Shown piece by piece: positions 1 to 30,788 of a stretch of DNA of 30,788 nt. The notes below the pieces were generated by a model. The model was not told the origin of the DNA and ran no database searches. It worked only from the letters and a program-made list of their open reading frames with translations. Numbering within the stretch: position 1 is the stretch's first letter; each line of letters opens with the position of its first letter. This DNA comes from a virus, in IMG/VR virus record IMGVR_UViG_3300023184_002232, positions 1 to 30,788 of that record; one strand, 5' to 3'. The position numbers were made by a program, and so were the translations under genes.

Positions 1-2795
1 TAGCAGAACCCATAGTAAATGCCACATTATCTGGCACACTTACATAACTCGTAGTCCCATTAAAGTAGGCTGACGCACCATATGTTGCGGCGCTATATGC
101 TGCTGTGAGGCTAGTGAAACCAAACGGGTTTACGGTCCTTGGTTTAACATTATCAAAAGCTGTTAAGGCAAAATTATTGGTTGAGTTGTCTACAAAGGTT
201 GGGCTTTGCAGGGTTAACAAGCTGGTAGCTGTACCTGTAACGGCTGCAATGTTTGTACCCGCAGCCTGTGTGGCTGTTAGTGGTGCTGTGGGCGGTGTGA
301 ATGTGCCAGTGTAAACGGCTACACCTTTTACAATACGCACATTACTGATATAACCCAAGAAGTCATTAACAGTAGTACCATACTGTCTACCAATATACGT
401 TACAGCAGCAGCATAATTTCTAGTGTCAGCAACAGATGCCTCTTGCGCACCATTAATAAACAATTTAGTGGTGCCAGAAATTCTTACTGCTGCTACATGA
501 ACCCACTGGTTTACTGCTAATGCATTTGTACTAGTCAACCAAACACTTGTGCCATCAAATATGTTTAAATTACCGTTACCTGTTATAAAGAACAGTATGC
601 GAGTGCCTGCACCGGCCTCACTATCAACAATACCTCTTTGAACACCAGTGTCTGTTCTGTAAATCCAACATTCAACAGTAAAGTCGCCTGTACCAAACCC
701 CAATACAGCATTGCTAGGCACAGTTAAGTAATCACCTGTACCATCAAAGTAAGCACTGTGCGTGATTGCTGTTTGTGTCTGTGGGCTGAATGGTGAAAAC
801 CGTTGAACGATTGGTGTACCAATTAAGGAAGTTATAGCAAATGCGTTAACGCTATTATCTACAAAACCATTACTTTGACAAGTTAATAAACTTGTGGCTG
901 AACCGGTAATAGCACTAATATTTGTACCACTAGCCTGTACTGCTGTTAAGGGTGCTGTGGGTACTGTAAAGTTACCGGTATAAACTGCGGTACCTTTAAC
1001 AGCACGAAAATTAGATATGTAGCCCGTAAATGCGTAACTACTACCACCATAATCGCCAATTCTCAAACTAGTGCTAGTTTCATTTGCACCTGAACTTACT
1101 GTCGCACACGATATACCATTAATATACATTGTAATTACGCCACTATTTCTAACTATTGCTAAATGATACCATGAACCAACTGTTAGTCCCAATCCTGCTG
1201 TAGTAGAAGTTAATTCAGTTGCACCATTATTATAGTAAAATCTAACATAATTATTGTACACTTGTACACGGGTACCGTTACTTGCTTGATCAAATAAGTA
1301 ACCATTACTAGCAGAATAACTTACGCTGGGATTATACCACATTTCTATTGTATAATTTCCCGTACCCCAAATAAATGCGCTATTAGCACTAGGACTAATT
1401 GAAGAATTACTATTGCCAAAGTAGTTTGACCAGTTAGCACCATACGGGCTACTAGTGCCAGCACTGGTATTACCTGCACGAGTAACAGCAAAGGTATTAG
1501 TACTTGAGTCTAGGAACATGCTGTTGCTGGCTGGCTGATTTGTTTGCAGGGTTAACAGACTGGTTCCGGTTATGGCAGTTAGTGGTGCTGTGGGCGGGGT
1601 GAATGCTGAGGTGTAGACTGCTGTACCTTTGACAATACGAGCATTGCTAATGTAGCCATTTGTATACTCAAAATTACCCGCACCATTTCTACCTATAGCT
1701 ACAGTTTGGGCAGAATCAGTCATTGCTAATGCCGCCATATTAAGATCGATGCCTTTAACCCCGTCAACATACACATTAACTGTTGCACCATTGCGAACAC
1801 CAGCAACGTGATACCATCTGCCAACTGTTGGTGCTGTAGCAAAAGTAGAGAAATACATAACTCCAGCATAACCAATTCCTGTGCTAAACTGTGTCGAGCT
1901 GTTTATACCAAGTGTAAAACTCATGGAGGCAGCACTACCTGCAGCATCACAAGTTCCTATAAAAATTTGTTGGGCCGTACTATTTAAGTATACCCAGCAC
2001 TCTAGTGTATAATTTCCAGAACCCATAGTAAATGCCACATTATCTGGCACAGTTACATAACTCGTAGTCCCATTAAAGTATGTGCTGCCGTATGCAGCAT
2101 ACTGAGTGTTGGGTACGAATGGGGTTGAGGAACTAATCTTGGTATTGTCGTAGGCTGTTATGGTAAATGCGTTTGAGCTGTTATCAATAAATCTATTACT
2201 TTGGCAGGTTAACAAACTGGTGTTTGCGATTGCAGTTAGTGGTGCTGTAGGAGGGGTGAAGTTGCTGGTGTAGACTGCGGTTCCGTTGACAACACGTAAA
2301 TTAGAAATATACCCTGTATAGTAATAAAGCCCACTATAAGCTAGTGAATACCCAATGGTACTAACTCCGGCAGTACCCCAAGTACCTGCAAAAGCAGTTG
2401 AATTGGATAAAGCACCATTAATATAAAAATACATTGTTCCTGCAGAACGTACAAACGCAACATGTGTCCATGTGTTTAAAGTAACAGTAGCAGAACTAGA
2501 AATACTTACACCAGAATAAAAGGCATTTAATGCACCATCAGCAATACATAGATAAGAAGTACCATTTCCTAATAATATTCTATAACTGCTATTTGCAGTC
2601 ATGTAAACCCAACATTCAACAGTAAAGTCGCCTGTGCTAAAAGAAGATGAAGAACTGCTAGGCACAGTTAGGTAATCGCCAGTACCATCAAAGTAGTTGC
2701 TGTAGTATCCTGGCGTAAAGGGATTAAAATTGTTGGGCCGGGTATCGCCTGCAATGGCGAGTGCAAAATTATTTGTGCTGGCGTCTGTTATGAAT
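1..2795 (-). repeat. Tandem LamG-like modules, about 660 nt each
   Basis: At least four full modules and one partial module repeat inside the adhesin gene, roughly 2795-2196, 2195-1520, 1519-865, 864-193 and 192-1. The boundaries are marked by the recurring linker that encodes LLTCQS..DNS..F. A stretch at 4-69 matches 2017-2082 with one mismatch in 66 bases, in the same reading frame. A second shared segment occurs at ~665 and ~2609. Confidence 0.85.
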
Positions 2796-3742
2796 GTTTC
2801 TGTGCTGGCACTACCACTCAGCAGCAGTGTGTTGTACATTACATACTGATCTGTAGCTACACTCACGGTCCAGGTAATGGTAGCAGTGGCAGTTCTACCA
2901 GTAGTGGCTGCTGTAGCTGTAAATGTAGTAGCTGTAACAGCTGCTACTGTAGGTGTTCCAGTAACTGCGGATCCCACAATACTTAATCCGGCGGGTAGTG
3001 CAGTTGAAGTGTATGAAATGGTTTTACCAGCAGCACTGGTTGCTGTTAGTGCAGTGCTTGAAGCTGTGTTCTGCTCTAGCGTAACGCTTGTGTTAGCCAT
3101 AGTCACAACATCAGTGTTTATGGTTAAACTAAAGCTGGCAGAGGTACTGTCTTGCAGTTGAGCATCAGTTGCCTTTATGGTAAATGTATATGTTGTATTA
3201 CTTGCCGTAGCTGAAGCTGTACCAGTTAGTTCACCTGTACTGCTATTTAACACTGCACCGGCTGGCAGTGTGCCACTGGCTAGTGTGTAGACTATGGGCG
3301 CGTCTCCACCTGTAGTTACCAACACACCAGTTGCAATACTGTTGGTTTCGTATGTGCTAGCAGGACTAATTGCTGTAGTTGTCCAAACGGGTGTGCCACT
3401 GTATACCAGGCCAGGAATGTAGATTGCAGTGCCACCATCTGGGTTTAATACGTAGATGGCATATGTAGCTGCAGTTTTTGCAGGAGCCGTAAATGTCAGG
3501 GTATTTGCGTTAACGTATGCAGTAGTAACAGCACTACCGCCCAGTGTAATGATGGCACCTGATATAAAACCAGTACCGTTTATTTGTACGGTTTGCCCAC
3601 CCGCTATGTCTACAGCTGTATCATCCACAATAGCTGACGCAATAAGTATGTTGATGCTGTTGATAACAGGCGCTAGTGGAATACTTGCATTAATTACACT
3701 AGTTCTAGTAACTGTGTCATTTTTAACTGAAACTATGCTCAT
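1..3742 (-). CDS. Giant Ig-like/LamG-repeat tail adhesin, 3' end outside window
   Basis: The frame stays open from the ATG at 3742 to base 1, so at least 1,247 codons are present and the C-terminus is missing. The start overlaps the stop of the preceding gene (ATGA, 3739-3742), and upstream Shine-Dalgarno (SD) complementarity is weak, suggesting translational coupling. An IPT/TIG-like domain lies at residues ~25-110 (VQINGTGF, AIYVLNPDGG). Two putative Ig-like domains of the He_PIG type follow at ~110-205 and ~206-300 (GTLPAGAVLNSSTGELTGTA; ALPAGLSIVGSAVTGTP). Concanavalin A/LamG-like modules of ~220 aa then repeat, each with YFDGTGDYLTVP, DFTVECWVY, a YINGA-type strand and YISNLRVVNGTAVYT. 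They are joined by a TPPTAPLTA...SLLTCQSN..DNS linker. LamG folds usually bind carbohydrate, so a receptor-binding fibre is likely; that role is inferred. No intramolecular chaperone or peptidase is visible in the part present. Confidence 0.88.
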   Translation of the reverse strand, partial: MSIVSVKNDTVTRTSVINASIPLAPVINSINILIASAIVDDTAVDIAGGQTVQINGTGFISGAIITLGGSAVTTAYVNANTLTFTAPAKTAATYAIYVLNPDGGTAIYIPGLVYSGTPVWTTTAISPASTYETNSIATGVLVTTGGDAPIVYTLASGTLPAGAVLNSSTGELTGTASATASNTTYTFTIKATDAQLQDSTSASFSLTINTDVVTMANTSVTLEQNTASSTALTATSAAGKTISYTSTALPAGLSIVGSAVTGTPTVAAVTATTFTATAATTGRTATATITWTVSVATDQYVMYNTLLLSGSASTETFITDASTNNFALAIAGDTRPNNFNPFTPGYYSNYFDGTGDYLTVPSSSSSSFSTGDFTVECWVYMTANSSYRILLGNGTSYLCIADGALNAFYSGVSISSSATVTLNTWTHVAFVRSAGTMYFYINGALSNSTAFAGTWGTAGVSTIGYSLAYSGLYYYTGYISNLRVVNGTAVYTSNFTPPTAPLTAIANTSLLTCQSNRFIDNSSNAFTITAYDNTKISSSTPFVPNTQYAAYGSTYFNGTTSYVTVPDNVAFTMGSGNYTLECWVYLNSTAQQIFIGTCDAAGSAASMSFTLGINSSTQFSTGIGYAGVMYFSTFATAPTVGRWYHVAGVRNGATVNVYVDGVKGIDLNMAALAMTDSAQTVAIGRNGAGNFEYTNGYISNARIVKGTAVYTSAFTPPTAPLTAITGTSLLTLQTNQPASNSMFLDSSTNTFAVTRAGNTSAGTSSPYGANWSNYFGNSNSSISPSANSAFIWGTGNYTIEMWYNPSVSYSASNGYLFDQASNGTRVQVYNNYVRFYYNNGATELTSTTAGLGLTVGSWYHLAIVRNSGVITMYINGISCATVSSGANETSTSLRIGDYGGSSYAFTGYISNFRAVKGTAVYTGNFTVPTAPLTAVQASGTNISAITGSATSLLTCQSNGFVDNSVNAFAITSLIGTPIVQRFSPFSPQTQTAITHSAYFDGTGDYLTVPSNAVLGFGTGDFTVECWIYRTDTGVQRGIVDSEAGAGTRILFFITGNGNLNIFDGTSVWLTSTNALAVNQWVHVAAVRISGTTKLFINGAQEASVADTRNYAAAVTYIGRQYGTTVNDFLGYISNVRIVKGVAVYTGTFTPPTAPLTATQAAGTNIAAVTGTATSLLTLQSPTFVDNSTNNFALTAFDNVKPRTVNPFGFTSLTAAYSAATYGASAYFNGTTSYVSVPDNVAFTMGSA

Positions 3743-7188: not shown

Positions 7189-8295
7189 TTAGGATCCGAA
7201 AATCAATGCCATTGCTATACTCTTACTGATAGCTGCTGAAGAACTTATACCAGTTGCTAACTCTCTTATTTGAATGGTATCATTTAATGCTGGAGCTGTA
7301 ACAAATGTAAGTGTTGTAGTACTTATTGTATAATCTGTAGTAGGCTTTTGAACGACACCGTTCTGAATAACTAATACACTGTCTACTGTACATCCGCTTG
7401 TTACGGTAAAGGCCGTCTGACTACCCGTACCTGTATAATTTCTTGTTAGAGAATTGTTACTTGCACTGGCTCCACCACCTGATCCAGTTGCAGTAGAATT
7501 TATGGTTTGATTAGGCCATGTACCTGTTACTGTGATATTTGTGCCAGCAACAATGCTTGGAGTTGTTGTGCCTGTACCGCCGTTAAGTACTGGTAGCGCT
7601 GTACCTGACAGAGTAATTGCTAGTGTACCACTAGTAGTAATAGGACTACCAGATACCGACAAAAACGCAGGTACAGTAGCAGATACACTAGTAACTGTGC
7701 CACCGCCACTTGCAGTAGAATTTATGGTTTGATTAGGCCATGTGCCTGTTACTGTTACGTTTGTACCAGCAACAATGCCTGGACTAGCAGTTCCTGTACC
7801 ACCATTAGCTACTGCTAGTGTACCAGCAAGAGTAATAGTTCCTGATGTTGTAATTGGACCACCAGATGTGGTTAATCCTGTTGTGCCACCTGATACATTG
7901 ATGCTGGTGACGGTACCATTACCACTTGCAGTAGAATTTACAGTTTGATTAGGCCATGTGCCTGTTACTGTTACGTTTGTACCAGCAACAATGCCTGGAC
8001 TAGCAGTTCCTGTACCACCGTTGGCTACTGCTAGTGTACCTGTCACGCCGGTAGAAAGAGGTAATCCTGTAAGATATGTAGCTGTACCGCTAGCTGGTGT
8101 ACCTAGTGCTCCGCCTGCTACGCTATCATAGTAAGAAGAACTAGCTATACGAGTAATAGTATTACCAGCATTTTTATAGTACAGTATACCATCTTGGTAA
8201 TTTAGGGCTAATTCACCATAATTTAGATCAGTAGTTAAGGGTACCCTTGCAGCTACACTTGATCTTTTAAGTGTAATAGTATTACTAGTTGCCAT
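7189..8295 (-). CDS. Repeat-containing tail fibre protein (368 aa)
   Basis: The N-terminus (NTITLKRSSVAARVPLTTDLN, YGELALNYQDGILYYKN) is a head typical of phage tail fibres and resembles that of the 635-aa fibre (SIKIKRSSTLG..GVGELAY). The middle holds three copies of a ~72-aa unit with VANGGTGT or LNGGTGT, (P)(G/S)IVAGTN(V/I)TVTGTWPNQT and a Gly/Ser/Thr linker. The C-terminal domain (residues ~285-350: NYTGTGSQTAFTV, VLVIQNGVVQKPTTDYTI, LNDTIQIRE) resembles a small beta domain that ends many phage fibres. An AGGAAC Shine-Dalgarno sits 5 nt upstream of the ATG. It is preceded by an 18-bp palindrome and lies 50 nt after the 635-aa fibre gene. Likely a trimeric side-fibre or adhesin subunit. 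Confidence 0.87.
   Translation of the reverse strand: MATSNTITLKRSSVAARVPLTTDLNYGELALNYQDGILYYKNAGNTITRIASSSYYDSVAGGALGTPASGTATYLTGLPLSTGVTGTLAVANGGTGTASPGIVAGTNVTVTGTWPNQTVNSTASGNGTVTSINVSGGTTGLTTSGGPITTSGTITLAGTLAVANGGTGTASPGIVAGTNVTVTGTWPNQTINSTASGGGTVTSVSATVPAFLSVSGSPITTSGTLAITLSGTALPVLNGGTGTTTPSIVAGTNITVTGTWPNQTINSTATGSGGGASASNNSLTRNYTGTGSQTAFTVTSGCTVDSVLVIQNGVVQKPTTDYTISTTTLTFVTAPALNDTIQIRELATGISSSAAISKSIAMALIFGS
7709..8040 (-). repeat. Direct repeats encoding the VANGGTG/TWPNQT unit
   Basis: Positions 7709-7824 and 7925-8040 match over 116 bases with about four mismatches by hand count, at an offset of 216 nt (72 codons, in frame). A more divergent third copy lies at ~7492-7609. Near identity indicates recent duplication or gene conversion. 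Confidence 0.88.
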
Positions 8296-8345: not shown

Positions 8346-10253
8346 TTAGTATGTTCCGCCGTCTACTAGATTTGAGAAGAAAGGATTGCCTGTACTGTCT
8401 GATTTTAAGAAACTGCCATCTATTGTGGCAGCAGCTGTAACACCAATAGTGCTGGTTCCATTACCAAATAGGATACCACGACTTGTAACAGTTGCTAAAC
8501 CTGTACCACCATAAACTGGAGTTAATACTGTACCATTCCATACGCCTGTAGTAAGTGTACCAACTGATGTTAAGCTACTAGCAGTAACAGTACTACCTAA
8601 TGTTGTTGAAGATAGTACTGATACATTATTGATCTTGAATACTTTACCGGTAACAATATTCCAGTCTTCACTGCTGTTCCAATTGCTGTAAGTGCTATCC
8701 CAAGTAATAGTTTTATTTGTAGTACCTTTAAGTAAGATACCACCACCATTAGCAGTTGTGTTATCTGGAGTGGCAACACTGCCTAACTCAATTAAAATAT
8801 CATCAACTGTAACTACTGTACTATTAATTGTTGTGGTAGTACCATTAACAGTTAGGTTACCACCAATTGTTATGTCACCCGTAGTGCTAAGTGTGGTAAA
8901 AGCACCAGTTGAAGCAGTTGTAGCACCTATGGGAGTGCCATTAAGACTGGTAAGACTTATACCCGTTGCACTGCCACTAATTGTAGCGGCACCTAAATTT
9001 ATAGTATTGCCGCTTAGGTATAGATCTCTAAAACGATATAGGTTACTACCTAGGTCATAGGTAATATTGGCAACTGGTAAAACATGTCCACTAACTGCCA
9101 GTGAGTTATTTATAGTAGTAGTGCCTGTGGCAGCACCTAAACTTAGGCTGGTTGCTGCACCACCAATATTTAGGGTAGTAGCTGTTGTATTAAAAGCACT
9201 AAAAGTAGTGGTTGTTGCAAGAACTGAGTCTGTAAAACTAGGACTTGTAGCAAATACACTTACACCTGTACCTGTTTTGTTTGTGAGTGCTGCAAGTAGA
9301 TTTGCGCTACTAAATGATCCTAGTACTGTGGCATTACCAGTTGAGGTTATATGCCCAGTTAAGTTAGCATTAGTAGTTACTGTACCGGCTGTAAAACCAG
9401 CTGCAGTTCCTGTAATATTTGTACCTATTAAGGCACTAGGAGTTCCTAGTGCAGGGGTTACTAGTGTGGGACTTGTGGCAAATACTAGGGCTCCAGTACC
9501 TGTTTCGTCAGTTACTGCTGCTGCTAAATTAGCTGATGTTGCAACAGCTAGAAAGCTAGCTATACCACTAGCTAAACCACTTACTCCAGTAGATACAGGA
9601 AGTCCTGTAGCATTAGTAAGTGTTGCACTACTTGGAGTTCCTAGTGCAGGGGTTACTAGTGTAGGACTTGTGGCAAATACTAGGGCTCCGGTACCTGTTT
9701 CATCTGACATTGCTGCAATTAAGTTTGCACTGCTAGGCGTACCCAGGAAAGTAGTCATATTTGCAGGAATAGAGCTCATACTACTAACTGCCCAAACACT
9801 ACTACCACTTCCATTTGATGTTAGTACATAACCATTGGTGCCAGTAGAGTTAGGAAGTGTAAATGCACCAATTTTTACTAAACCTGTACCATTAGGTGTA
9901 ATCTCAACACCACCATTAGTATCAGTGGCTGCAATAACATTGGTAACACCAGCACCACCTATTTGTAGGTTTGTGGTTTTAACAACATCAACCTTACCAC
10001 TAGCATTAACAACAATAGCAGAACTAGCAGTTAGAGTACCTGGTGTATGGTCTAGCATATCTGCAAAATACTTGCCACCAATAACATCATGTACAGATGC
10101 ATTGCCACTAGTTTCACCGCCCGTACCAATATATAATCTATCTCCTCCATTAGCATCAGTGCCTGTTAAAGACGAGTATGCTAATTCACCTACACCTAAT
10201 GTACCGGGATTACCCAGTGTAGACGATCTTTTAATCTTTATACTAGATGCCAT
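8346..10253 (-). CDS. Long repeat-containing tail fibre protein (635 aa)
   Basis: The N-terminal head (SSIKIKRSSTLGNPGTLGVG, GELAYSSLTG, DRLYIGTGGE; residues 1-60) is typical of phage fibre attachment domains. Residues ~160-340 contain repeats built from DETGTGALVFATSPTLVTP, ALGTPSSATLTNATGLP and GLASGIASFLAV. The second half carries motifs common in long fibres of aquatic phages: YDLGSNLYRFRDLYLSGN, TINLGAATISG, LTVNGTTTTINSTVVTVDD, and a VYGGTGL motif near the C-terminus. No S74 chaperone domain is present, so trimerisation would need another route. An AAGGAG Shine-Dalgarno lies ~8 nt upstream, with a 13-nt gap after the 103-aa gene. It shares a near-identical 342-bp block with the 377-aa fibre gene. 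Confidence 0.88.
   Translation of the reverse strand: MASSIKIKRSSTLGNPGTLGVGELAYSSLTGTDANGGDRLYIGTGGETSGNASVHDVIGGKYFADMLDHTPGTLTASSAIVVNASGKVDVVKTTNLQIGGAGVTNVIAATDTNGGVEITPNGTGLVKIGAFTLPNSTGTNGYVLTSNGSGSSVWAVSSMSSIPANMTTFLGTPSSANLIAAMSDETGTGALVFATSPTLVTPALGTPSSATLTNATGLPVSTGVSGLASGIASFLAVATSANLAAAVTDETGTGALVFATSPTLVTPALGTPSALIGTNITGTAAGFTAGTVTTNANLTGHITSTGNATVLGSFSSANLLAALTNKTGTGVSVFATSPSFTDSVLATTTTFSAFNTTATTLNIGGAATSLSLGAATGTTTINNSLAVSGHVLPVANITYDLGSNLYRFRDLYLSGNTINLGAATISGSATGISLTSLNGTPIGATTASTGAFTTLSTTGDITIGGNLTVNGTTTTINSTVVTVDDILIELGSVATPDNTTANGGGILLKGTTNKTITWDSTYSNWNSSEDWNIVTGKVFKINNVSVLSSTTLGSTVTASSLTSVGTLTTGVWNGTVLTPVYGGTGLATVTSRGILFGNGTSTIGVTAAATIDGSFLKSDSTGNPFFSNLVDGGTY
9301..9642 (-). 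repeat. Copy 1 of a 342-bp block shared with another fibre gene
   Basis: This block aligns without gaps to 12592-12933 (offset 3,291) with roughly 19 mismatches by hand count, about 94% identity. It encodes the GTPS..NATGLP, GLASGIASFLA and NITGTAAGFTAGTVTTNANL units in both genes. Parts of it are also repeated locally at ~9641-9710. Confidence 0.9.
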
Positions 10254-10266
10254 TTATAGGGCTCCT

Positions 10267-10578
10267 TTAATATTGTCCACATTCAAGGACCTGTTGGCTT
10301 AAATTTATAGTAGAATTCCATTTACTGTTAGCTGTGCTATACACTAATAAAGACCCATCTACTACTGGTGATGCTAAAATTACATCAGTTAATTGACCTA
10401 CTGTGCTTGCACCGGCACCAATACCTGTAGCACCAGGTGCCCCTGTAGCACCAACTGCACCTTGTGGACCTGTAGCACCTTGCGCACCTGGTATACCCTG
10501 TATACCGCTAACTACTATTATTTCTTTTACAGGAGTACTAACAGTAACTGGATTAGTGGGATTGCTAACCGTAATCAT
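10267..10578 (-). CDS. Short collagen-like fibre/linker protein (103 aa)
   Basis: After a Val/Thr-rich head (residues 1-26), residues ~29-54 form a short G-X-Y run (GIQGIPGAQGATGPQGAVG and onward). The joint motif QLTDV...VDGSLLVYSTANSKW follows, and the protein ends LECGQY. Collagen-like G-X-Y runs are common trimerising elements in phage fibres, so this is probably a small trimeric connector or accessory fibre. The start overlaps the stop of the 196-aa gene as ATGA (10575-10578), so the two are probably translated together. The same LxDV..SKW joint appears in the 64-aa protein at 4078-4272. Confidence 0.83.
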   Translation of the reverse strand: MITVSNPTNPVTVSTPVKEIIVVSGIQGIPGAQGATGPQGAVGATGAPGATGIGAGASTVGQLTDVILASPVVDGSLLVYSTANSKWNSTINLSQQVLECGQY

Positions 10579-11165
10579 CTGGTTATCTCACGCTCTAGTG
10601 TTATGTTGCCAAATAATAGGGGAATTACCGTTGAACCTTGTACTATCTCTAAATTATAGGCTGCAGAGGTAAAAGTATAGGCAGCAGTTTCAGTTGCAGG
10701 TACAACAATTCTTATCTCTTTAAGTGCATTGTCTATAACCAGTTTACCATTTGCTGTAGTTAATTCATCTATTACTACTGAACTAGATACCTTTTCGCGT
10801 ATCTGCATGCGTGCAGTTGTATTAGCTAAGTCTATAGGTACATTATACTCTATCATTCCTCCAGAAACATAGGTTGTGTAGTTTATAGCATTAATTGAGT
10901 TAAAGGTTAGGGTAGTACCAGTAGTACTGGTAACTGTTAAATAATCTATGGCATTACTAAGTTCCTTCATGCCATTAGTAACAGTGATTTTAACTCTCCA
11001 ATTGGCAGGTATAGTATGACCTGCTGTAGTTACTACTAGTGGGGCAGATTTAGATATATTAGTAATAGGAATATATTCTTTTAAAGAACTCTCCCATCTA
11101 ATAGTTTCAACGAAAGTACTGCCTTGATATATTTTTAAATTTAATTTTATTGGTTGTAAAGACAT
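10575..11165 (-). CDS. Baseplate/fibre-associated protein with TARMQIR motif (196 aa)
   Basis: The start (LKIYQGSTFVETIRWES) and the C-terminal half (DLANTTARMQIREKVSSSVV, ELTTANGKLVID, IVVPATETAAY, YNLEIVQG) match a widespread phage protein. I recognise it from memory; it is normally ~110-120 aa and lies near tail-fibre genes. Residues ~36-110 (APLVVTTAGHTIPANWRVKI through YVSGGMIEYNVP) look like an inserted module between the first strand and the TARMQIR part. A comparable long form exists in other phages. It is the first gene after the terminator-promoter pair at 11271-11348. An AGGAAAG Shine-Dalgarno precedes the ATG. Likely function: adaptor in the baseplate or fibre base. Confidence 0.84.
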   Translation of the reverse strand: MSLQPIKLNLKIYQGSTFVETIRWESSLKEYIPITNISKSAPLVVTTAGHTIPANWRVKITVTNGMKELSNAIDYLTVTSTTGTTLTFNSINAINYTTYVSGGMIEYNVPIDLANTTARMQIREKVSSSVVIDELTTANGKLVIDNALKEIRIVVPATETAAYTFTSAAYNLEIVQGSTVIPLLFGNITLEREITR

Positions 11166-11270
11166 ATACTTTCCTAATCACATTAATTAAGTGCCTAGTA
11201 TAAAACAGCTATAGTGCTTTATAGTAGTAGAACTGTAAAATAATCTAGAGTTCTATATTTATTGTATACC

Positions 11271-11299
11271 ATTATATCATATAGGCATACTGTCGTCAA
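11271..11299 (-). promoter_or_regulatory. Sigma70-type promoter for the fourth transcription unit
   Basis: On the minus strand, TTGACG (11299-11294), a 17-nt spacer and TATAAT (11276-11271) are present. A TGA directly before the -10 gives the extended form TGATATAAT. It lies just behind the strong terminator and ~105 nt upstream of the 196-aa gene. The predicted leader holds a 7-bp inverted repeat (11228-11234 with 11249-11255). Confidence 0.85.
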
Positions 11300-11302
11300 G
11301 CC

Positions 11303-11348
11303 AAAAAATATTCGACCTTTGCACTAAGGCAAAGGTCGAATATTTTTT
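11303..11348 (-). terminator. Very strong rho-independent terminator, 20-bp stem
   Basis: Arms 11303-11322 and 11329-11348 are exact reverse complements (20 bp) with a 6-nt loop. The stem contains ttcgacctttgc and ends in A/T runs on both sides, so it could act in both directions. It closes the unit that ends with the 253-aa Gly-rich gene at 11365. Confidence 0.93.
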
Positions 11349-11364
11349 TGTTGCAGACGGATTG

Positions 11365-12126
11365 TTAGGTAAAAGTTATAGTGCCACCAGTAATCCAGGT
11401 AAATACAGTATAAGTAACACTACTCTCAGTAATTGTTGTGACTGTAGCATTAGTTTGAGTGACAGTAGTATAGGCATCTTGTCTACAACGCATAATAACA
11501 ATGCCACCAGCACCGTTACCTCCATTAGCACCACTGCCACTCCAACTAAAACTTGTGCTGCCTCCATTACCGCCGCCGCCTGCCTGGCCTTTAGCACTAC
11601 CACTAGCACCTCCACCACTACCACCTATATAAGTTCTGACAGTTCCACCACTACCACCTCCACCATAACTAACACTTGTGCCTGTAATACTGCTGCTAGT
11701 TGAGGGAGTAACACTAAAGGTACTTAAACCTGTACTGCTAGCGCCTCCACCAAAACTTCCTGTACCTAATCCACCTGCTGCAGTCAATCCTGTGTTTACG
11801 CCAAAAACTCCAGATATACTAGAACTGCCACCATCTGTACCATCTATTCTGGTAAATGGCGAGGTAGATTGCTGAGTACCAGCAAATCCTGCTATTCCCA
11901 CTTGTATTGTATAGCTAGAATTAACTTTAACTCTGTTATTAGAAATACTAACAGTTGCGCCTCTGGCGGCATTACCGCCTGCACCATTAGTGCCAGTTGT
12001 ACTATTACCTGTACCACCTTGTCCAGCACTACCTCCTCCACCACCTCCTACCACAAGTAAAGATACTTGAATTATTTTATCAGAACTTCTGAAATTTCTA
12101 AATGCAGAATGTAGTACACCAGTCAT
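11365..12126 (-). CDS. Glycine-rich tail adhesin (253 aa)
   Basis: The protein begins MTGVLHSAFRNFRSSDKI, followed by one Gly-rich domain opening [11 protein letters not shown] (residues ~30-205) and closing GAGGIVIMRCR. A Thr/Val-rich tail ends TVFTWITGGTITFT. The domain resembles those of the 574-aa protein but is more diverged and lacks the EYLVVAGG consensus. I chose the ATG at 12126, not the in-frame start at 12153, because it gives a clean ATGA overlap with the preceding fibre stop. Likely a receptor-contact protein that works with the 377-aa fibre just upstream, an arrangement that recalls gp37/gp38 pairs of T4-like phages. That parallel is inference. It is the last gene before the 20-bp-stem terminator. 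Confidence 0.84.
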   Translation of the reverse strand: MTGVLHSAFRNFRSSDKIIQVSLLVVGGGGGGSAGQGGTGNSTTGTNGAGGNAARGATVSISNNRVKVNSSYTIQVGIAGFAGTQQSTSPFTRIDGTDGGSSSISGVFGVNTGLTAAGGLGTGSFGGGASSTGLSTFSVTPSTSSSITGTSVSYGGGGSGGTVRTYIGGSGGGASGSAKGQAGGGGNGGSTSFSWSGSGANGGNGAGGIVIMRCRQDAYTTVTQTNATVTTITESSVTYTVFTWITGGTITFT

Positions 12127-13256
12127 AGTAGCCCACTTCCACCAATAATCCAATTTGTAGTTGTAATCTTAATAGCAGTCGCTGATCCATACTGAGATAA
12201 ACTAAATGAACCTGTAGCACCACTAGGGCTCAGATATAGGGTATCAGTTGCAATTGCAATTGTTACAGTTGCAGTACTCATGTTAACAAATGTAATTGTT
12301 GTGCCAAGTGGGTAGGCTACTGATGCATTTGCTGCAATTGTATATGTTCTGGCAGTTGTATCGGCTGAAGGGTGAAGTAGTACTTTACCTGAGTCTGCTA
12401 ATACTGTGGTATACGCCGCACTTTGACTGTTGACAGGAATATTTTTAAAACCCACAAGGTCTGTGCCATCAACAGTGCAAGATGACAATGTACCACTGCT
12501 AGGTGTACCCAATACAGGTGTAACTAGTGTGGGGCTTGTAGCAAATACATTTGCACCAGTGCCTGTTTCATCAGTTAGTGCTGCAAGTAGGTTTGCACTA
12601 CTAAATGATCCTAGTACTGCAGCATTACCAGTTGAGGTTATATGCCCAGTTAAATTGGCATTAGTAGTTACTGTACCAGCTGTAAAACCAGCTGCAGTTC
12701 CTGTAATATTTGTACCTATTAGGGCACTAGGAGTTCCTAGTGCGGGTGTTACTAGTGTGGGACTTGTAGCAAAGACTAGGGCTCCGGTACCTGTTTCATC
12801 TGACATTGCTGCTGCTAAATTAGCTGATGTTGCAACAGCTAGAAAGCTAGCTATACCACTAGCTAAACCACTTATTCCAGTAGCTACAGGAAGTCCTGTA
12901 GCATTAGTAAGTGTTGCACTACTTGGAGTTCCTAAATTAGGTGTAACTAGTACCGGATTTGTAGCAAATACATTTGCACCACTGCCTGTTTCATCAGTTA
13001 GTGCTGCCGCTAAATTAGCACTTGATGGAACAGCTAGAAAGCTAGCTATACCACTAGCTAAACCACTTATTCCAGTAGCTACAGGAAGTCCTGTAGCGCT
13101 AGTAAGTATTAGACTGGTTGGGGTTCCTAAATTAGGTGTAACTAGTACTCCACTAACTCTTTCTGCTTTATCTGTATTTAAATTTGTAAAATTAGCGTCT
13201 ATTTCTACATTAGTTAGTGGAGATCCTTTACTAGTACGTGATATTATTGTAGTCAT
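12123..13256 (-). CDS. Repeat-containing tail fibre protein (377 aa)
   Basis: The N-terminus TTIISRTSKGSPLTNVEIDA is followed by NFTNLNTDKAERVSG, a head seen on many phage fibres (SPLTN.E.D.NF..LN). Residues ~40-270 are repeats of LVTPNLGTPTSL, SATGLPVATGISGLASGIAS and NLAAALTDETGSGANVFAT, near-identical at DNA level to part of the 635-aa fibre. The C-terminal ~110 residues form a different domain (NIPVNSQSAAYTTVLADSGK, TYTIAANASVAYPLGTTITF, TNWIIGGSGLL), resembling a compact beta domain at the tips of phage fibres. An AGGG element lies ~7 nt before the ATG. The stop overlaps the start of the Gly-rich adhesin. Probably a trimeric side fibre. Confidence 0.88.
   Translation of the reverse strand: MTTIISRTSKGSPLTNVEIDANFTNLNTDKAERVSGVLVTPNLGTPTSLILTSATGLPVATGISGLASGIASFLAVPSSANLAAALTDETGSGANVFATNPVLVTPNLGTPSSATLTNATGLPVATGISGLASGIASFLAVATSANLAAAMSDETGTGALVFATSPTLVTPALGTPSALIGTNITGTAAGFTAGTVTTNANLTGHITSTGNAAVLGSFSSANLLAALTDETGTGANVFATSPTLVTPVLGTPSSGTLSSCTVDGTDLVGFKNIPVNSQSAAYTTVLADSGKVLLHPSADTTARTYTIAANASVAYPLGTTITFVNMSTATVTIAIATDTLYLSPSGATGSFSLSQYGSATAIKITTTNWIIGGSGLL
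12592..12933 (-). repeat. Copy 2 of the 342-bp block shared between fibre genes
   Basis: Ungapped match to 9301-9642. The two encoded stretches differ at about five residues by my reading (for example NATGLPVATGISG against NATGLPVSTGVSG). Further partial copies continue to ~13110 within this gene. Confidence 0.9.
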
Positions 13257-13276
13257 TAGAAACCCTGTTTAAAAAA

Positions 13277-13741
13277 TTATGCAGCAACTAGGTTAATATT
13301 CCAGTTTACTATCATGCTATCTGTAGCACTTTTACTAAATGCACTAAATACAGTGCGGCATAGCATATCTCCAGTAGCTGCTGTACCACTATTAAATATG
13401 GCAGCTTCAGTTACTGTACCTGTTGAGACCCCAATATTAAATTCACAAGCATAATTAATACCAGAAGATGTAGGCGTTCCACCATTTACAAGTAGTGCTA
13501 CTCTACTGCCCAGTATTGTTTGAATATCTGTTTGTGCAGGTTGAACAGACACAGCATTTGATCCTATTGCCATGTGACTCATAACACTTTTAGCTGTTCC
13601 AGCCATTCTAGAAGCAATAAAGGCTAAACCTGTATTAACTATTAAATTATTAACTTTGCGAATATCTTTTATGTGGCCTTTACTGTCTATTAAAATTATA
13701 GTTAGCATACCACTAAGTTTTAGAGTTTCTTTAGTAATCAT
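13277..13741 (-). CDS. Phage tail-fibre-type protein (154 aa)
   Basis: The pattern MLTIILIDSKGHIKDIRKVN, NLIVNTGLAFIASRM, MSHMAIGSNAVSVQPAQTD, LGSRVAL, AAIFNSGTAATGDMLCRTVF and MIVNWNI resembles a common phage domain of ~130-150 aa found in tail-fibre and tail-tip regions of many phages and prophages. I know of no proven function. There is no clear Shine-Dalgarno in front of the ATG at 13741. An internal ATG at 13708 (MLTIILIDSKG) would fit the usual start of this family better, so the true start may be there. The gap after the preceding gene is 7 nt, which allows translation by re-initiation. Confidence 0.82.
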   Translation of the reverse strand: MITKETLKLSGMLTIILIDSKGHIKDIRKVNNLIVNTGLAFIASRMAGTAKSVMSHMAIGSNAVSVQPAQTDIQTILGSRVALLVNGGTPTSSGINYACEFNIGVSTGTVTEAAIFNSGTAATGDMLCRTVFSAFSKSATDSMIVNWNINLVAA

Positions 13742-13748
13742 AGAATAC

Positions 13749-14108
13749 TTATTGTGTAATATTAATAGAACTACCTGTATAGTCCTCTAAAAAATAATTT
13801 GCATTATCAACATAATCCTGCTTTAATATTGTGCCAGCACTAGATATGTTTAAAATATCGGCTAGACTTATACCACTTGAATATGGTCCTGTAATAACTT
13901 TGGCCTGTATATTGCTATAACTTACAGCTACTAGTTTATTTATAGTAGTAGCTTGAACTAGTTTGTTACTATAGGATACTACTAATTTTTTTGGAGTTAC
14001 AGAAATAACTGCTTTAATACCGGATACTGATAGGGATGCTAACTTTCTGCTATATATACTTGCTGTAGCTACAATAGCTCGTGTTAGCGAACCAATTACT
14101 TTAATCAT
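13749..14108 (-). CDS. Hypothetical tail-region protein (119 aa)
   Basis: I do not recognise a named family. The first ~70 residues are Ser/Val/Lys-rich and partly repetitive: VSYSNKLVQATTINKLVAVS and VSYSNIQAKV share a VSYSN motif. The C-terminal end (ISLADILNIS, KQDYVDNANYFLEDYTG) resembles a short acidic-aromatic tail I have seen on small phage baseplate-region proteins. It is encoded with an ATGA overlap (14105-14108) after the BppU-like gene and 7 nt before the 154-aa gene, so it is almost certainly expressed and probably belongs to the same tail-tip assembly. No membrane segment or cysteine cluster is visible. Confidence 0.75.
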   Translation of the reverse strand: MIKVIGSLTRAIVATASIYSRKLASLSVSGIKAVISVTPKKLVVSYSNKLVQATTINKLVAVSYSNIQAKVITGPYSSGISLADILNISSAGTILKQDYVDNANYFLEDYTGSSINITQ

Positions 14109-14431
14109 GCAATATCTTCTCGGATAAATAATTCTATAAGATCAAATACTGTTTCTCTTATACCAGCACTGTCTATAACTTCTATCTCAGCCTCATAGGT
14201 ACCTGGAGCCCTATCTAGATCTCCTGCTACCCATACTACGTTAGCTATACCTGAAGTGGCAGGACTAACAATAGTGGCAGCTTTGGTAAAGGATAGCACT
14301 GATGCCCCTTTAGCCCTAACATTAATATTAATTGTAGCACCAGTTAAATTAATAGCCTGTAATGATACACTATCTGTAAGTACTAATTTTAATATTGGCG
14401 AAGTATCACCCTGTACAAAATTAATAGCCAT
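14105..14431 (-). CDS. BppU-like baseplate upper protein (108 aa)
   Basis: The sequence starts MAINFVQGDTSPILKLVLTD and continues NLTGATININVRAKG, VWVAGDLDRAPGTYEAEIEV and ETVFDLIELFIRED. The arrangement of a short D/T turn, LTGA..N..V..KG, an Ig-like middle and a D...PG.Y.AE.E strand matches the N-terminal domain of the BppU family (PF10651 by my recollection). In lactococcal phages BppU links the receptor-binding proteins to the baseplate. Here it would be the adaptor for the fibres encoded downstream; that role is inferred. An AGGAAG Shine-Dalgarno lies 5 nt upstream. The gene overlaps the preceding one by 11 nt and the next by 4 nt (ATGA). Confidence 0.86.
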   Translation of the reverse strand: MAINFVQGDTSPILKLVLTDSVSLQAINLTGATININVRAKGASVLSFTKAATIVSPATSGIANVVWVAGDLDRAPGTYEAEIEVIDSAGIRETVFDLIELFIREDIA

Positions 14432-16362: not shown

Positions 16363-20858
<4,496 letters not shown>

Positions 20859-20859
<1 letters not shown>

Positions 20860-22808
20860 TATACTAATACCTCTACATCTATGGTTGAAGTTAGCCAATT
20901 AGGACTTAATGTTACTACTTGACCAACTGTAGCAGTTGTTAAATTAAACCTGGGATGAGTCAGTGTTACACCTTGGCCAAGTTTTAAACTTAATAGACCT
21001 GGTGTACCTGTAAATTTATATATAGTTCTGGGTATACTATATAGTGTATTTAATTCAGTTGATCGGGTTTGTGCATCTTGAGCTCGCAGTAGTAGTGTAT
21101 CTATTCTGTTTATAGAGTCTTCTGATAGTTTATAGTTATCTCTAGCTGCGGTATTTACAGTAGTTTTTGTAAGGTATTCCGTAGCAAAATTAGCTTTATC
21201 CTCTGGACGTATATCAGTTAATAAGTTTTCTTGTATATTCCAATTTTTATTATAGTTAATAGTATTAGATGCAACTACTGTAGTTCTATAAGATATAGTT
21301 AGCGACTGATCTAGTATATTGTCTTCTGTAATATTAACTACAGTATCTGTAGTTGGGGAATCTATTTTTAATAATTGTAATTTGCCCTTACGATTCATAA
21401 ATATTTGAGCACCAATACTATTAGCTAACTGTTGACATACGCTTAATACTGAACTACTATCTTGAATCAGTATTCCAACTGGTTGAGTGTTAACAGCACT
21501 AAATGCCAGTAAATTTTCTAAGTCTAGTTCACCAGCTGTTAGCTTATTCTTTCCATACTCTCTAGCAATAAGAGCAATTAAATTAGCTATATTATTGACA
21601 TAGGTACCTGTTACTAGGGCACCTGTACTTAAATTAATTGATTTTTTAACTCCTTGTGCACTCATTGTTATAGTGCCTGCAGCAGGTACAGTTGTAGTAA
21701 ATATACCTGTTGGCAAATCTACAGTGCCACCACTACTTAATATTTCAGTAGTACCATTATGCGTATATAGGGGCTTTCCATTATCACGTACTTCAATTAG
21801 TAATTCGCTGGCATCCTTACAAAACATATACTTTGCAGAACCTGCGTACTGTGGAGCTGGGTCTATTAATAACGGACTAAAGTTAAATACTTCTCCAAAT
21901 ATTATGGGCCGTATAGTATCTTGATTAGTTTGTCCAGTACCCCAAGTTCCTAGAGTTCCTACTTTAACATCAGTTAGTGCTACATTTAGTCTGTCTAGTT
22001 TATCTCTGATCTTAATATTTAGCGTATTTCTATCTACAGAATCTACGTCAGCTATTACGCCATCAAATATTTTCTCAAACCGTGTGTGTACCTCTGTGAG
22101 ATCTTGACAGATCCATGCCGGATCTCCCAGATATATCTGTATAGCTCTGTTTGCCCAAATGTACTGGGTATAGTCTAACCAAACATCTAACTCACCTGCA
22201 GAGTTATTGACAGCTATGTCACCAAAACTTATAGTGGGTTGTCCATCTATAGGTAAACTTTCTGTGAACTGTACACCTCCTGAAATAACAGGTAAATAAC
22301 TAATACTACTATCTGCCGTAACATAACCTATATTAGATAAGTATATTGGAGTTTCAGCAGTAAAATTACCTGTTCCGGTACCTGTTCCAGTTCCTGTTGC
22401 AGTAAATGAAGTTCCAACATTTGGCTGAGCCGTTATTGTTGTTGAACTTGCCGTCATGCTATTGCTTAAGTTGTATGTTCCTACACCACCTGTGCCTGTA
22501 CCAAAAGATGAAATAGTAGTGCCAGCAGTAATACCTGTGCCATTAATAGTAGCACCAACAGTTAATGCACCAGAAGTTACAGCAGTAACTGTTAGAACTG
22601 TTGTTGCTACAGAACCAGTAACTACTGCCGTTGATGATGCACCAATTGAAACAAAATTAGTTGTACCAATTGTTTTTATTATATAAGATGCACCTATAGT
22701 AAATGCACCTGCTGTTGTTAGTATAGTAGAAATATTTTTAACTGCTAATTCAATAAGAATTCCGCGTATACTATTACTATCCTCTAACCAAGACTGTGAA
22801 TAAGACAT
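20859..22808 (-). CDS. Putative tail-tip/hub protein with nested inserted modules (649 aa)
   Basis: It directly follows the tape-measure gene, the usual position of tail-tip or hub proteins. Residues ~160-649 look like a hub-type core: [134 protein letters not shown] cannot assign a Pfam family with certainty. Residues ~34-147 hold a separate module ([20 protein letters not shown] ... [18 protein letters not shown]), and a second module (~62-128, [14 protein letters not shown]) is inserted within it. A GGGAG Shine-Dalgarno lies 5 nt before the ATG, and a strong promoter ~20 nt further up. Confidence 0.8.
22368..22709 (-). other. Module-within-module insertion in the hub protein
   Basis: Outer module: [17 protein letters not shown] and [16 protein letters not shown], which in other phage proteins form one continuous unit (from memory). 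Inner module: 22425-22625, [13 protein letters not shown]...[18 protein letters not shown], similar to residues ~26-62 plus ~150-165 of the 267-aa protein. The boundaries are judged by eye. Confidence 0.6.
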
Positions 22809-28900: not shown

Positions 28901-30719
28901 ATAGATCCATAGCTTTAGATGTTGCTTCAGATTCTTTTGTAGTATTAGATAGATAACTAAGTAGAGTTATTAAACCAACCGCAACTAGACCTATAACTTC
29001 TAACCAAGGTAAAAATGAAGCAAGAGTTAACCCTATAGAAGCTATAGCAGCCCTTATAGTTACACCTATAAGCGTTATACCTCCTGCAATAGCATTAAGT
29101 TTACCACCTAATCTAACAGCAGCATCACCTGCTGCAGTTAGTCCATTTGTAGGTATATCTGTACCTTTAGCTACTGCTAACTTTGTATTTTCGTAAGCAT
29201 TTTTAACAGCGGCAACAAATCCCTCAGTAGCCTGCATCTTTCTAGCCTGATCAGCTATATAGATTTTTGAGGCAGATTTATCTGCTGTCTCTGATACTCT
29301 TCTTAAATTAGATTCTTGTGAGAGTACTCCCTCTGCTAATTTTACTCTGCGAGCAGATGTTGCTTCACCTTCATCAGTAGCAATTTTATTTATACGTCTT
29401 AAGTCTAAAACACCTGCTATCTGATTTCTAATTAGGGCAGCTTCCGCAGCATTAGCACCCTGTATTGTATTAGCTCTAGTTGCCCATATCTTTAATTGCT
29501 CATCTGTTGTAGTTTTAAGATTTTTTGTTAATCCAGTGCCTAAAGCAGTAAGCGTGTCAGTACTAAATTTACTACTATTAGACTCTAAAGTAGCTAATTT
29601 TGTATAGTAGTCTTCTTGTAATCTTACTTTTCTCTTAATACTTTGAGATGTAATATCATCTAATTTACCGCTTGCTAATTGCTGATTAAGAAACGCTTCT
29701 TGAGCTTTCTTATTTGCAAAAATAGCCGCATCTTCTAGTGACTGTTTAAACTGTCCTAGTGCAGGTATAGCTTGTTTTAACAGTATAACACCTAATGCAG
29801 TCATTACAGCTGCAAGTGCAGTAGGATTAGAAGATAGTATATCTAAGATAGGCGTCAATACTTTATTAACTAACTCAAGACCAGTTTGGGCCACATTAGT
29901 CATTGATGCCAGTAACTTGCTGTAGGGGTTGGCATCTATCTGTATATTGCCAAACTTTTTTTCGCCTTCCTCTAACACAGCATTTGCAAAAGCCTGTTTT
30001 TTCTCAAAATCAGTTAGCGAACTAACGCTTTTACCCAACTGACGAGCATAGGCCTCCTGACTAGGAATAACTCTGGCCATGATGCCTAATTCGTCTAGTA
30101 GTTCTGGTTGTACTTTAGCAATACCCTTTGTTAGTCGATCCATAGAGTCAGGCATATCTCTGCCTAATGCTAGTGAGGCCTTTTTAGCTACTTCAGTCAT
30201 CCTAAGAATATTGGCACTGCTCATGCCTGATGCACTTGCCATAGCTGTACTGCTCATAGCATCGCGTAAAGATATAGCACCATCAGCAGCCTGAACCATT
30301 TGTTTAGCTAAACCACCCAGACTTCTGCCACTAATTGCACCCAGCTGATCTAGGCCCTTAATAATGTTGGTGGTATCAGCAGCTCTAGATAGGGCACCAA
30401 ATGCAGCACTTACAGCAAACAAGTTGGCTGCAAATGTAGCGTAAACGTGAACAAGCCCACCAAGGCCTTGTGCCTGTTTTGCAAAGTCTCTACCACTTGC
30501 GCCACTTGCGCCCGCAACTCCGCGGCTTAAATTAGTGTCTGTGGCGGTTGAACCTGCACCAGGCATAGTAGCCTGTGCAGTACGTACAGGTATTGGTATT
30601 CTGATAGTTGCAGCAGCAGCTGCCGCACCCTTTAAGCTGTCATGTAGTTGTTGAGCCTGATTATTGGCACTAGATAGGCCTGGGGCTTCAACTTTTACTT
30701 CTACATTTACTGTTGCCAT
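22917..30719 (-). CDS. Phage tail tape-measure protein (2,600 aa)
   Basis: I chose the ATG at 30719 (MATVNVEVKVEA), with AAAGGGAG ~6 nt upstream, over an in-frame start at 30752. Residues ~195-260 (PELLDELGIMARVIPSQEAY, RQLGKSVSSLTDFEKKQAFA, NAVLEEGEKKFG) are typical of tape-measure proteins. Hydrophobic segments lie at ~299-315, ~545-590 (LPWLEVIGLVAVGLITLLS) and ~1703-1725 (GPWGWAAAAAAIAALGLG). Between the last two is a long charged coiled coil. Near the C-terminus are a Gly run (~2412) and the tape-measure motif LALVGEQGPELVDFKTPSRV (~2501-2526). By the usual ~0.15 nm per residue rule the tail would be about 390 nm, an inference that favours a long siphovirus- or myovirus-like tail. Gene order (hub next) agrees. 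Confidence 0.95.
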   Translation of the reverse strand: MATVNVEVKVEAPGLSSANNQAQQLHDSLKGAAAAAATIRIPIPVRTAQATMPGAGSTATDTNLSRGVAGASGASGRDFAKQAQGLGGLVHVYATFAANLFAVSAAFGALSRAADTTNIIKGLDQLGAISGRSLGGLAKQMVQAADGAISLRDAMSSTAMASASGMSSANILRMTEVAKKASLALGRDMPDSMDRLTKGIAKVQPELLDELGIMARVIPSQEAYARQLGKSVSSLTDFEKKQAFANAVLEEGEKKFGNIQIDANPYSKLLASMTNVAQTGLELVNKVLTPILDILSSNPTALAAVMTALGVILLKQAIPALGQFKQSLEDAAIFANKKAQEAFLNQQLASGKLDDITSQSIKRKVRLQEDYYTKLATLESNSSKFSTDTLTALGTGLTKNLKTTTDEQLKIWATRANTIQGANAAEAALIRNQIAGVLDLRRINKIATDEGEATSARRVKLAEGVLSQESNLRRVSETADKSASKIYIADQARKMQATEGFVAAVKNAYENTKLAVAKGTDIPTNGLTAAGDAAVRLGGKLNAIAGGITLIGVTIRAAIASIGLTLASFLPWLEVIGLVAVGLITLLSYLSNTTKESEATSKAMDLLKSSLDTVDKTLETINKKPLLEQLSTESVQAKATALAELVASAKSAVEKANIELEKMGRVSGSVNWVNNFFGYGVAKGLNEEISSVVVKSFEALNKGPAQVAAQKAVANILGTTITTSKQLQDVLNSLPAQGKGAILRIIPALQQVSQEFSVGAAKSTELRESYILTNKIFDEFTNSLKATDTYSRLGTAMVEDASKLSIAIQDPISSLNSMLEVVTDINKLRLFPEDTAVELMAQTDALKTLQLQQANAVQSIADTNVEIAKLSEKLNKTLPVGTSLVRFMIDPLFIKEINETKQKIQDLEKTKTIGLDIIASITTKADQLKSVFNAAILEQFKLGASIVSSRLAKDFSEANLTVQKGLAGILGDTKAGIIIRAKIEQQSIDVQRQSIQTQISLVETMEHLTVEMALRRIIDERRDIEGSPGGASTNDPKFTQLQKDEKKLLAREADFSKRPSYKDTSASMGRGDIAIDKERLEYLSKIEGFQAAIQKLNATSRLVNIQKVIDLEKKAYAEKNKATQEDLKDIDVQVSKAELLTTITGLTTAESLQNKQNLANNRINLQTQIEINDKKSELNTLELVELEFAKAKDIEASKLTKAEAVRVTTEISRLETRKRLEQDQQKNNKDTYEQSKAIFEAQQRVQDAIYVRLEQSQSVEEQKIINNESLLELQKELNTLTDVNYITKKSSLDLDNLQLAAQKQIDSITKSANSKIDQAEFNIEQIKARTQAGAAQTSQLAEQQKIIDDTNKLTDSQVKLLLETLGINIKITKEKSANSVEMARQVELEAKLAKAAAIRADRLEVDNALLDFENQRLDNAKELGRITDTQYARNKAGIEIVKQELAYKEKSRVAEEAVLAARNKLISADKNALDAKLNTGKPGESLMSQSGADATVNLTKGQTDAQTALDLAESIRKKIEDTYTIEQKRTAEQLKHNLFLVEQKNLIEKIASLTSSLEVIFGDVGKSIGDSVGAIAKFGKEYADTQAAIDKAKSSGNQDDLIQANKEQTTGVLTNLGLVAKATQGLYDKQTVGYKVLAGAEKAFNALKIGDAVKEFVLKSGLLTMWQTASATANVLEVAQAGITGKAAATASIPAVMMKFMEQMGPWGWAAAAAAIAALGLGVQGDSMVDMTGQTATERQATQGTGTVTGDSTAKSQSINNSLALLNATSVEGLSYYNKMVELLTDINKGISGVAKGVYGTIGLTSGSAFGNKDSESGGYNILGGLFGSTTNKQIIDTGIAFKGTIADFIAGSQDFVQAFENSLITSTSSLLWISSTSSRIQELLGPLNAKVTKAISKVFLNAAVTFVEVGKSLGMTVNDVMTGLSKIPLDKIVSLRGLQGQQLEDALSAAFSSMLDTAADGLFKSLEKFNVMGEGMLQTAVRVTDGLDKINLAMESIGKATVGSGMTGFEISQWIIDAAGGLDKALDLTKNFGSKFITDTERLLPVAAAVTKEFTRLGVSGTLTRESFKNLVQAYKVLGPAGAEVYTSLLKLSDGVDLIVKAAESLNNDLLDQRIAIYEKLDKAEEALILSRTKQLNALDALLRPGQIYLNALEDEKTLKDKLTTAYNNESTAIKSTITTLKNSIKTLTDYKTALTIGSMTILDPTKVYNQTKDSFDKLITLIKAPAVTDAEKLNQADAISKFASVSDAFLTASRVVNASDATYVRDFKSVTDFVDTSTSLLTTQLTDTELQLEKLTASVSFLEKIKTATESTAELLIALTAAQATTEAARIVYEASNTGKIVESANTVGIAINSTANTVGSDARLAIKDTTSAVEDTTTAILNSDAVRVAAAEAAIASHEVKYHASSDTTSGGGGGGGGNDSSNSTSASAAGYTNLATLSAFVSDHISTTLGQGIATVLGDTLSSLSFADISGGGTTSADSGAPSPGPAGIAFASGGLAKGLALVGEQGPELVDFKTPSRVYSNPASNDLLSNADLIAEIRNLHREISQLRKDQREQTGYLIKSNYDANQLAAQQVADATEAATAANTWNMRSAVKIA

Positions 30720-30771
30720 ATATTCTCCCTTTAACCATATAAATTTATACATGGTATTATTACTAACCCCT

Positions 30772-30780
30772 ATTATATCA
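30772..30780 (-). promoter_or_regulatory. Extended -10 element of a probable tape-measure promoter
   Basis: The minus strand reads TGATATAAT at 30780-30772, the same nine bases as the -10 at 11279-11271. It lies ~45 nt upstream of the tape-measure Shine-Dalgarno. A -35 box at normal spacing would fall outside the window, so the promoter is only half visible. Confidence 0.6.
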
Positions 30781-30788
30781 CCTATACA

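Follow-up and report, generated by a model that had tools for sequence, protein, structure and literature searches.

A repeat-module tract shared by two fibre genes of an uncultured phage and its probable origin by homologous copying

Results

Two fibre cassettes in one stretch of DNA

The DNA analysed here (the window; 30,788 bp, positions 1 to 30,788 of the IMG/VR virus record IMGVR_UViG_3300023184_002232) carries two fibre cassettes on the minus strand. In the order in which they would be transcribed, their genes and signals are the following.

14105-14431, minus: 108-aa protein, first gene of the first cassette; conserved alongside the 154-aa gene
13277-13741, minus: 154-aa protein (phrog_5417), first cassette; upstream of the 377-type head in most homologous loci
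12123-13256, minus: 377-aa fibre with an N-terminal docking-type domain (residues 1-37), modules a, b and c, and a C-terminal domain of predicted gp9/XD1 fold (residues ~264-377)
11365-12153, minus: glycine-rich protein of 262 aa (TTG start) or 253 aa (ATG start at 12126); Pfam Gly_rich_2, E 2e-9
11303-11349, minus: intrinsic terminator after the first fibre cassette; -32.3 kcal/mol, z -7.4
11271-11299, minus: promoter-like site TTGACG-17-TATAAT with an extended -10, before the second cassette
10575-11165, minus: 196-aa protein, first gene of the second cassette; 46-54% identity in 5/5 relatives with a 635-type fibre
10267-10578, minus: 103-aa protein, second cassette; directly upstream of the 635-type fibre in 4/4 relatives read
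8346-10253, minus: 635-aa fibre with an N-terminal domain (residues 1-165), a partial module a, modules b and c, and a C-terminal region ending in DGGTY

An earlier note on this DNA had assigned the two fibre genes to different transcription units separated by a strong terminator. This assignment appears well founded, because the terminator, a near-perfect hairpin for which no shuffle was equally good, is directly followed by the promoter-like site, which with 11/12 matches is the best within 8 kb. At the end of the first cassette, the ATG start of the glycine-rich gene overlaps the stop of the 377-aa gene, and the glycine-rich protein is likely a partner or adhesin of the 377-aa fibre. Neither the fibres nor the glycine-rich protein gave a sequence match to solved structures. 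The 108-aa protein has a weak, sub-threshold match to BppU_N; when it was compared with the 196-aa protein, encoded by the first gene of the other cassette, no common origin could be demonstrated.

Repeats are also found elsewhere in the window. The 368-aa fibre contains a different repeat of its own, in three copies (7466-7602, 7688-7824 and 7904-8040; 75-92% alike). A fibre-like ORF that is cut off by the left edge of the window (2-3742, minus) encodes 1247 aa or more and has internal repeats, which by eye resemble LamG. In addition, extended GxT repeats of collagen type (Pfam Collagen) are found in a 1511-aa protein (16363-20898), whose end is rich in glycine.

The end of the window (30662-30788) is identical over exactly 127 bp to L226:9965-10091, the end of the contig IMGVR_UViG_3300023184_000107 (67,650 bp). 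Because of this exact overlap, the two contigs very probably belong to a single phage genome, whose size would be ~98 kb or more; the overlap also suggests that assembly words of 127 were used. The capsid protein is 32-42% identical to those of ~110-120 kb phages of Aeromonas, Vibrio, Pantoea and Erwinia, which we take to be T5-like. A search with this protein gave 68 loci, and 20 of those records, which are incomplete, were searched whole. With the 394-aa protein as query no relative was found, and with the tape-measure protein the sole match was L226, the contig with the 127-bp overlap.

A block of near identity lies within two rows of modules

The two fibre genes diverge at both ends, as the earlier note had described, and have in common a block that it had put at about 94% identity with about 19 mismatches and no gaps. 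The alignment bears out both descriptions: the copies lie in the same frame, align without gaps and have 19 mismatches over 342 bp (94.4% identity), a similarity that is far above chance. The block spans from within one module to within the next, and the units concerned are listed here together with it.

12951-13145, minus: module a of the 377-aa fibre, 65 aa; 69 bp match module b of the same gene exactly
12756-12950, minus: module b of the 377-aa fibre, 65 aa; 92% nucleotide identity to module b of the 635-aa fibre
12528-12755, minus: module c of the 377-aa fibre, 76 aa; 90-91% nucleotide identity to module c of the 635-aa fibre
12592-12933, minus: block copy 1, within the 377-aa fibre gene, parts of modules b and c; 323/342 identical to 9301-9642
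9660-9731, minus: partial module a of the 635-aa fibre; 38 bp exactly as in module b of the 377-aa fibre
9465-9659, minus: module b of the 635-aa fibre, in the row of units of this gene
9237-9464, minus: module c of the 635-aa fibre, in the same row
9301-9642, minus: block copy 2, within the 635-aa fibre gene; 323/342 identical to 12592-12933

A tabulation of synonymous against nonsynonymous differences, which the earlier note had proposed as a check, gave 11 synonymous and 6 nonsynonymous changes among the 17 codons over which the mismatches are spread (dN 0.023, dS 0.156). The copies are in-frame direct repeats offset by 3291 bp, with exact runs of 68, 50 and 43 bp. The block is the middle of a longer 495-bp module homology (434/495 identical), and further copies of its repeat unit lie within both genes; it is therefore part of a repeat family and not a single isolated duplicated block.

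The window is a contig from a metagenome and has no end repeats, so that a short-read assembler might have collapsed or duplicated the block. However, the copies differ at 19 positions, and the longest exact run (68 bp) is shorter than the apparent assembly word indicated by the 127-bp end overlap, as from assembly at k = 127. Thus, no 127-mer is common to the copies and the assembler could hardly confuse them; an assembly artefact has a negligible probability and was rejected.

The modules are widespread and the fibre ends are conserved

Repeated in-frame domains (a, b and c) are present in both fibre genes of the window, and a profile of the unit detected 503 units in 164 ORFs of the loci compared, chiefly large fibre-like ORFs of phage contigs; relatives of the unit were also found in three bacterial genome records. 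No Pfam or NCBIfam model covers the unit, PHROG 6002 (virion structural protein) covers it in part, and a text search of the literature for the repeat motif gave no match. Because the family is widespread in phages, the sharing of modules by two fibres is in itself ordinary. AlphaFold gave no usable model of the shaft, and the shaft role is therefore deduced from repetition and position; on these grounds, the modules would be interchangeable shaft segments.

For the C-terminal domain of the 377-aa fibre, AlphaFold gave block-mean pLDDT values of 80-96 over residues 281-377. The whole domain (residues ~264-377) matched the folds of 9ny6_C (Z 13.5; 96 residues aligned, 2.0 A), 7rej_B (Z 10.5), 1qex_A (Z 9.7) and 5iv5_AC (Z 8.7), and is predicted to have the fold of T4 gp9, T4 gp10 and the XD1 domain of CBA120 TSP4. 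XD1 has been described as an apparent spacer between protein-binding modules, and the glycan-binding domains of two bacterial proteases share its fold (PMC8825819). No usable AlphaFold model was obtained for the C-terminal region of the 635-aa fibre. Among the 635-type fibres of diverse phages, 20/21 ORFs compared end in DGGTY or DGGTF (window 8346-8363), and such a fixed C-terminus appears unlike a variable tip.

A low-divergence tract and a patchwork of units point to copying

Although modules are commonly shared, two copies as close as these are unusual. The b units of the two genes are 92% alike and the c units 91%, and the nearest unit in any other contig compared reaches 71-74%. Among the units compared, the window copies are mutual nearest neighbours by ~20 percentage points, and among 50 loci they form the closest same-locus pair (best-pair median 74%, 95th percentile 85%). 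Moreover, the closeness is confined to one segment.

9286-9643, minus (partner 12577-12934): low-divergence tract with 20/358 mismatches; best segment by likelihood ratio

This tract was reached by 0/500 position shuffles and 0/300 codon shuffles, and mismatches amount to 5.6% in the core versus ~27% in the homologous module sequence of its flanks (Fisher p ~1e-10). In other words, the mark of gene conversion is present, a low-divergence tract bounded inside more divergent homology (94% within 73%), and a tract of this kind inside older homology argues for copying between both genes within this phage. A finer mosaic is superimposed on it: module b of the 377-aa gene is identical to the partial module a of the 635-aa gene over exactly those 38 bp where it departs from the 635 module b, and within the 377-aa gene a run of 69 bp is identical in units a and b. 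Such a patchwork is expected when units have exchanged sequence repeatedly. Because the partial module a of the 635-aa gene is not a simple copy of the 377-aa array, several exchanges are needed.

Selection at the level of the protein could by itself keep the modules alike, and dN (0.023) is indeed well below dS (0.156) and the motif is conserved across phages. However, in other phages the DNA of units that share this protein motif is no more than 71-74% alike, and the low synonymous divergence of the core requires shared DNA ancestry, so that protein-level selection alone is hardly credible. As a further alternative, each fibre could have acquired its b-c module pair separately from the same or closely related donors, with no exchange within the phage. 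The modules are common and mobile between phages, they and the C-terminal domain of the 377-aa fibre are found behind many other N-termini, and the c-type unit is frequent in other fibres. Against this, no other contig compared is closer than ~74% in nucleotides to either copy, an exact 38-mer of the block has no other occurrence in all IMG/VR contigs, and the mosaic runs link different units both within and between the two genes. We consider separate acquisition unlikely, and it is probable that a two-module stretch of a widespread repeat family was made alike by homologous copying inside this phage lineage.

The core has a dN/dS of ~0.15, which argues that both copies are maintained. The capsid gene has a dS of 0.131 to its nearest known relative, L230, from another sample (95.8% nucleotide identity over 4.6 kb). 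Because the core dS is similar, the last homogenisation would be roughly as old as the split from L230, an estimate that has a large error from such short sequences and assumes similar rates. As a consequence, nothing shows that copying continues. The earlier note had proposed recent duplication or continuing gene conversion; the tract, the nearest-neighbour copies and the mosaic uphold the copying, whereas the dS of 0.16 in the block against 0.13 in the capsid gene does not favor recent or continuing homogenisation.

Modules, domains and whole cassettes are gained, lost and exchanged in other phages

The modules are absent from both fibre types in 20/20 records of the capsid-gene relatives; with the 377-aa fibre as query, matches were confined to its C-terminal domain and to a single record, and with the 635-aa fibre they lay mainly in its N-terminal domain and came from other records. 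From this absence, the modules were probably gained after the split from these relatives. Three of the relatives (G005, G006 and G018) have the order 118-aa gene, 196-aa gene, 103-aa gene, 635-type fibre and 368-type fibre, and the first cassette, from the 108-aa gene to the glycine-rich gene and including the terminator, is missing at that place (L310, L309 and L308, respectively). In G019, the first cassette is present and the second is not in the stretch read, and G010 has both cassettes with different fibre bodies. A 492-aa fibre of G010 (L306:5863-7338) combines a 368-type head with a 377-type C-terminal domain, as would result from domain exchange between fibre positions. The gene order of the relatives thus indicates that cassettes come and go as units, while heads keep their position and bodies are swapped. 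As a separate observation, comparison of window 11165-14421 with L308, L309 and L310 points to a site in the fibre region at which an entire cassette may or may not be inserted.

The module family itself differs in copy number between close relatives among other phages. For instance, L154-L158 and L203 differ by exactly 228 bp, i.e. one c unit, with flanks ~95-97% alike, and L149 and L178 likewise differ by 228 bp. The single 228-bp unit of L203 (ORF codons 343-418) has a head like unit 1 and a tail like unit 2 of L157 (ORF codons 406-557), a hybrid of the kind expected from homologous recombination between two units. When phages were compared with one another, their similarity ended within units in 166 cases versus 129.5 predicted by coverage; this excess is only slight and the ends are not independent, and their concentration within units was dropped as support.

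A deletion between the copies is plausible in itself

The earlier note had calculated that recombination between the copies would delete ~3.3 kb and fuse the two fibres, and had raised the possibility of a switch of receptor specificity. The arithmetic is correct, as a crossover would remove 3291 bp with the reading frame kept; the fused gene would be an open frame of 539 aa, judging from the 96-codon offset. The deletion would take out the glycine-rich, 196-aa and 103-aa genes. Because the same modules recombine in other phages, such a deletion is plausible, and the 654-aa fibre of the unrelated phage L077, which consists of a 377-type head and a 635-type domain, indicates that the combination can exist.

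In a working recombination switch, the deletion would be recurrent, and the fusion of the 377 head to the 635 tail would change the receptor. The in-frame direct repeats with their exact runs, the open frame expected of the product, the L077 fibre and the relatives that have a single cassette within the stretch read are all in line with this idea. However, a fused gene was found in none of the 20 records of capsid-gene relatives, and the 38-mer of the block lies nowhere else in IMG/VR. Moreover, the 196-aa and 103-aa genes, which are companions of the 635-type fibre in relatives, would be lost, and a dS of 0.16 gives no hint that the copies are often homogenised. Finally, with a gp9/XD1 fold at the C-terminus of the 377-aa fibre and a nearly invariant DGGT[YF] at that of the 635-aa fibre, both C-terminal parts look conserved or connector-like, unlike variable tips. 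The fusion would thus join conserved, connector-like parts, and the proposed change of receptor specificity is unsupported. We regard such a working switch as highly improbable. A standing switch, in which a minority of genomes in the population would lack the 3291 bp and encode a fused fibre of 539 aa whose role in attachment differs, is very unlikely. With regard to a programmed switch of the invertase or recombinase type, the copies are direct repeats of coding modules, and among those window proteins that were compared with profiles none was recognised as a recombinase.

Discussion

Based on the data reported here, the near-identical block is a real feature that is well explained by module copying, and there is no evidence for a working switch. 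The wide distribution of the modules, the tract of low divergence with its mosaic sub-tracts, and the gain and loss of units in other phages are direct observations, and we suggest a model that would connect them. In this model, a tract was copied between the two fibre genes and came to lie over an older, looser module homology; gene conversion or unequal exchange, in either direction, would account for the copying. After copying, the two genes would have drifted independently under purifying selection. More generally, the modules may offer stretches of homology that allow fibres to acquire, drop and swap internal segments.

The locus indicates how widespread shaft repeats can provide two fibre genes that differ in other respects with sufficient DNA homology for the exchange of segments. 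From the relatives it is further apparent that entire cassettes are acquired and lost, while heads remain fixed and the bodies behind them are replaced. Detection of the deletion form in reads would tie intragenomic repeats directly to a change of the attachment apparatus in an uncultured phage. For the present, the locus illustrates well an established process, in which phages rebuild their host-attachment fibres by recombination.

The order of genes in the first cassette may have a counterpart in T-even phages, in which the shaft gene, gp37, is followed by the adhesin gene, gp38. Similarly, the 377-aa fibre gene is followed, with a short overlap, by the gene for the glycine-rich protein (Gly_rich_2), although this protein has no sequence match to any solved structure. 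The predicted fold of residues ~264-377 of the 377-aa fibre resembles T4 gp9 and gp10 and the XD1 domain of CBA120 TSP4 (PMC8825819), with the differences that the domain is C-terminal here and that identity is 14-21%.

Duplication and loss of fibre domains alter host range in the Xanthomonas phages OP1, Xp10 and Xop411 (PMC2248197), and, according to the summary given in that paper, small fibre domains of T4 change in copy number with altered host range (Tetart 1996, via PMC2248197). As in those systems, short fibre repeats vary in copy number, possibly by recombination, as between L157 and L203 with their 228-bp units. However, the changes in OP1, Xp10, Xop411 and T4 lie within one fibre gene and are tied to host range, whereas the tract described here lies in two fibre genes and is read from sequence. 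In Kuttervirus and the Ackermannviridae, receptor-binding modules are exchanged among tailspike genes (PMC8432352, PMC11414711). The likeness to our system would be that a genome has several receptor-binding genes with swappable bodies, as in the relative in which a 377-type C-terminal domain follows a 368-type head (L306). The difference would be that the part exchanged there is the receptor-binding module, while the part shared here is a shaft-like repeat. Thus, the case belongs to a known kind, that of copy-number change of fibre domains and of module exchange, and its particular feature is a tract that spans two separate cassettes.
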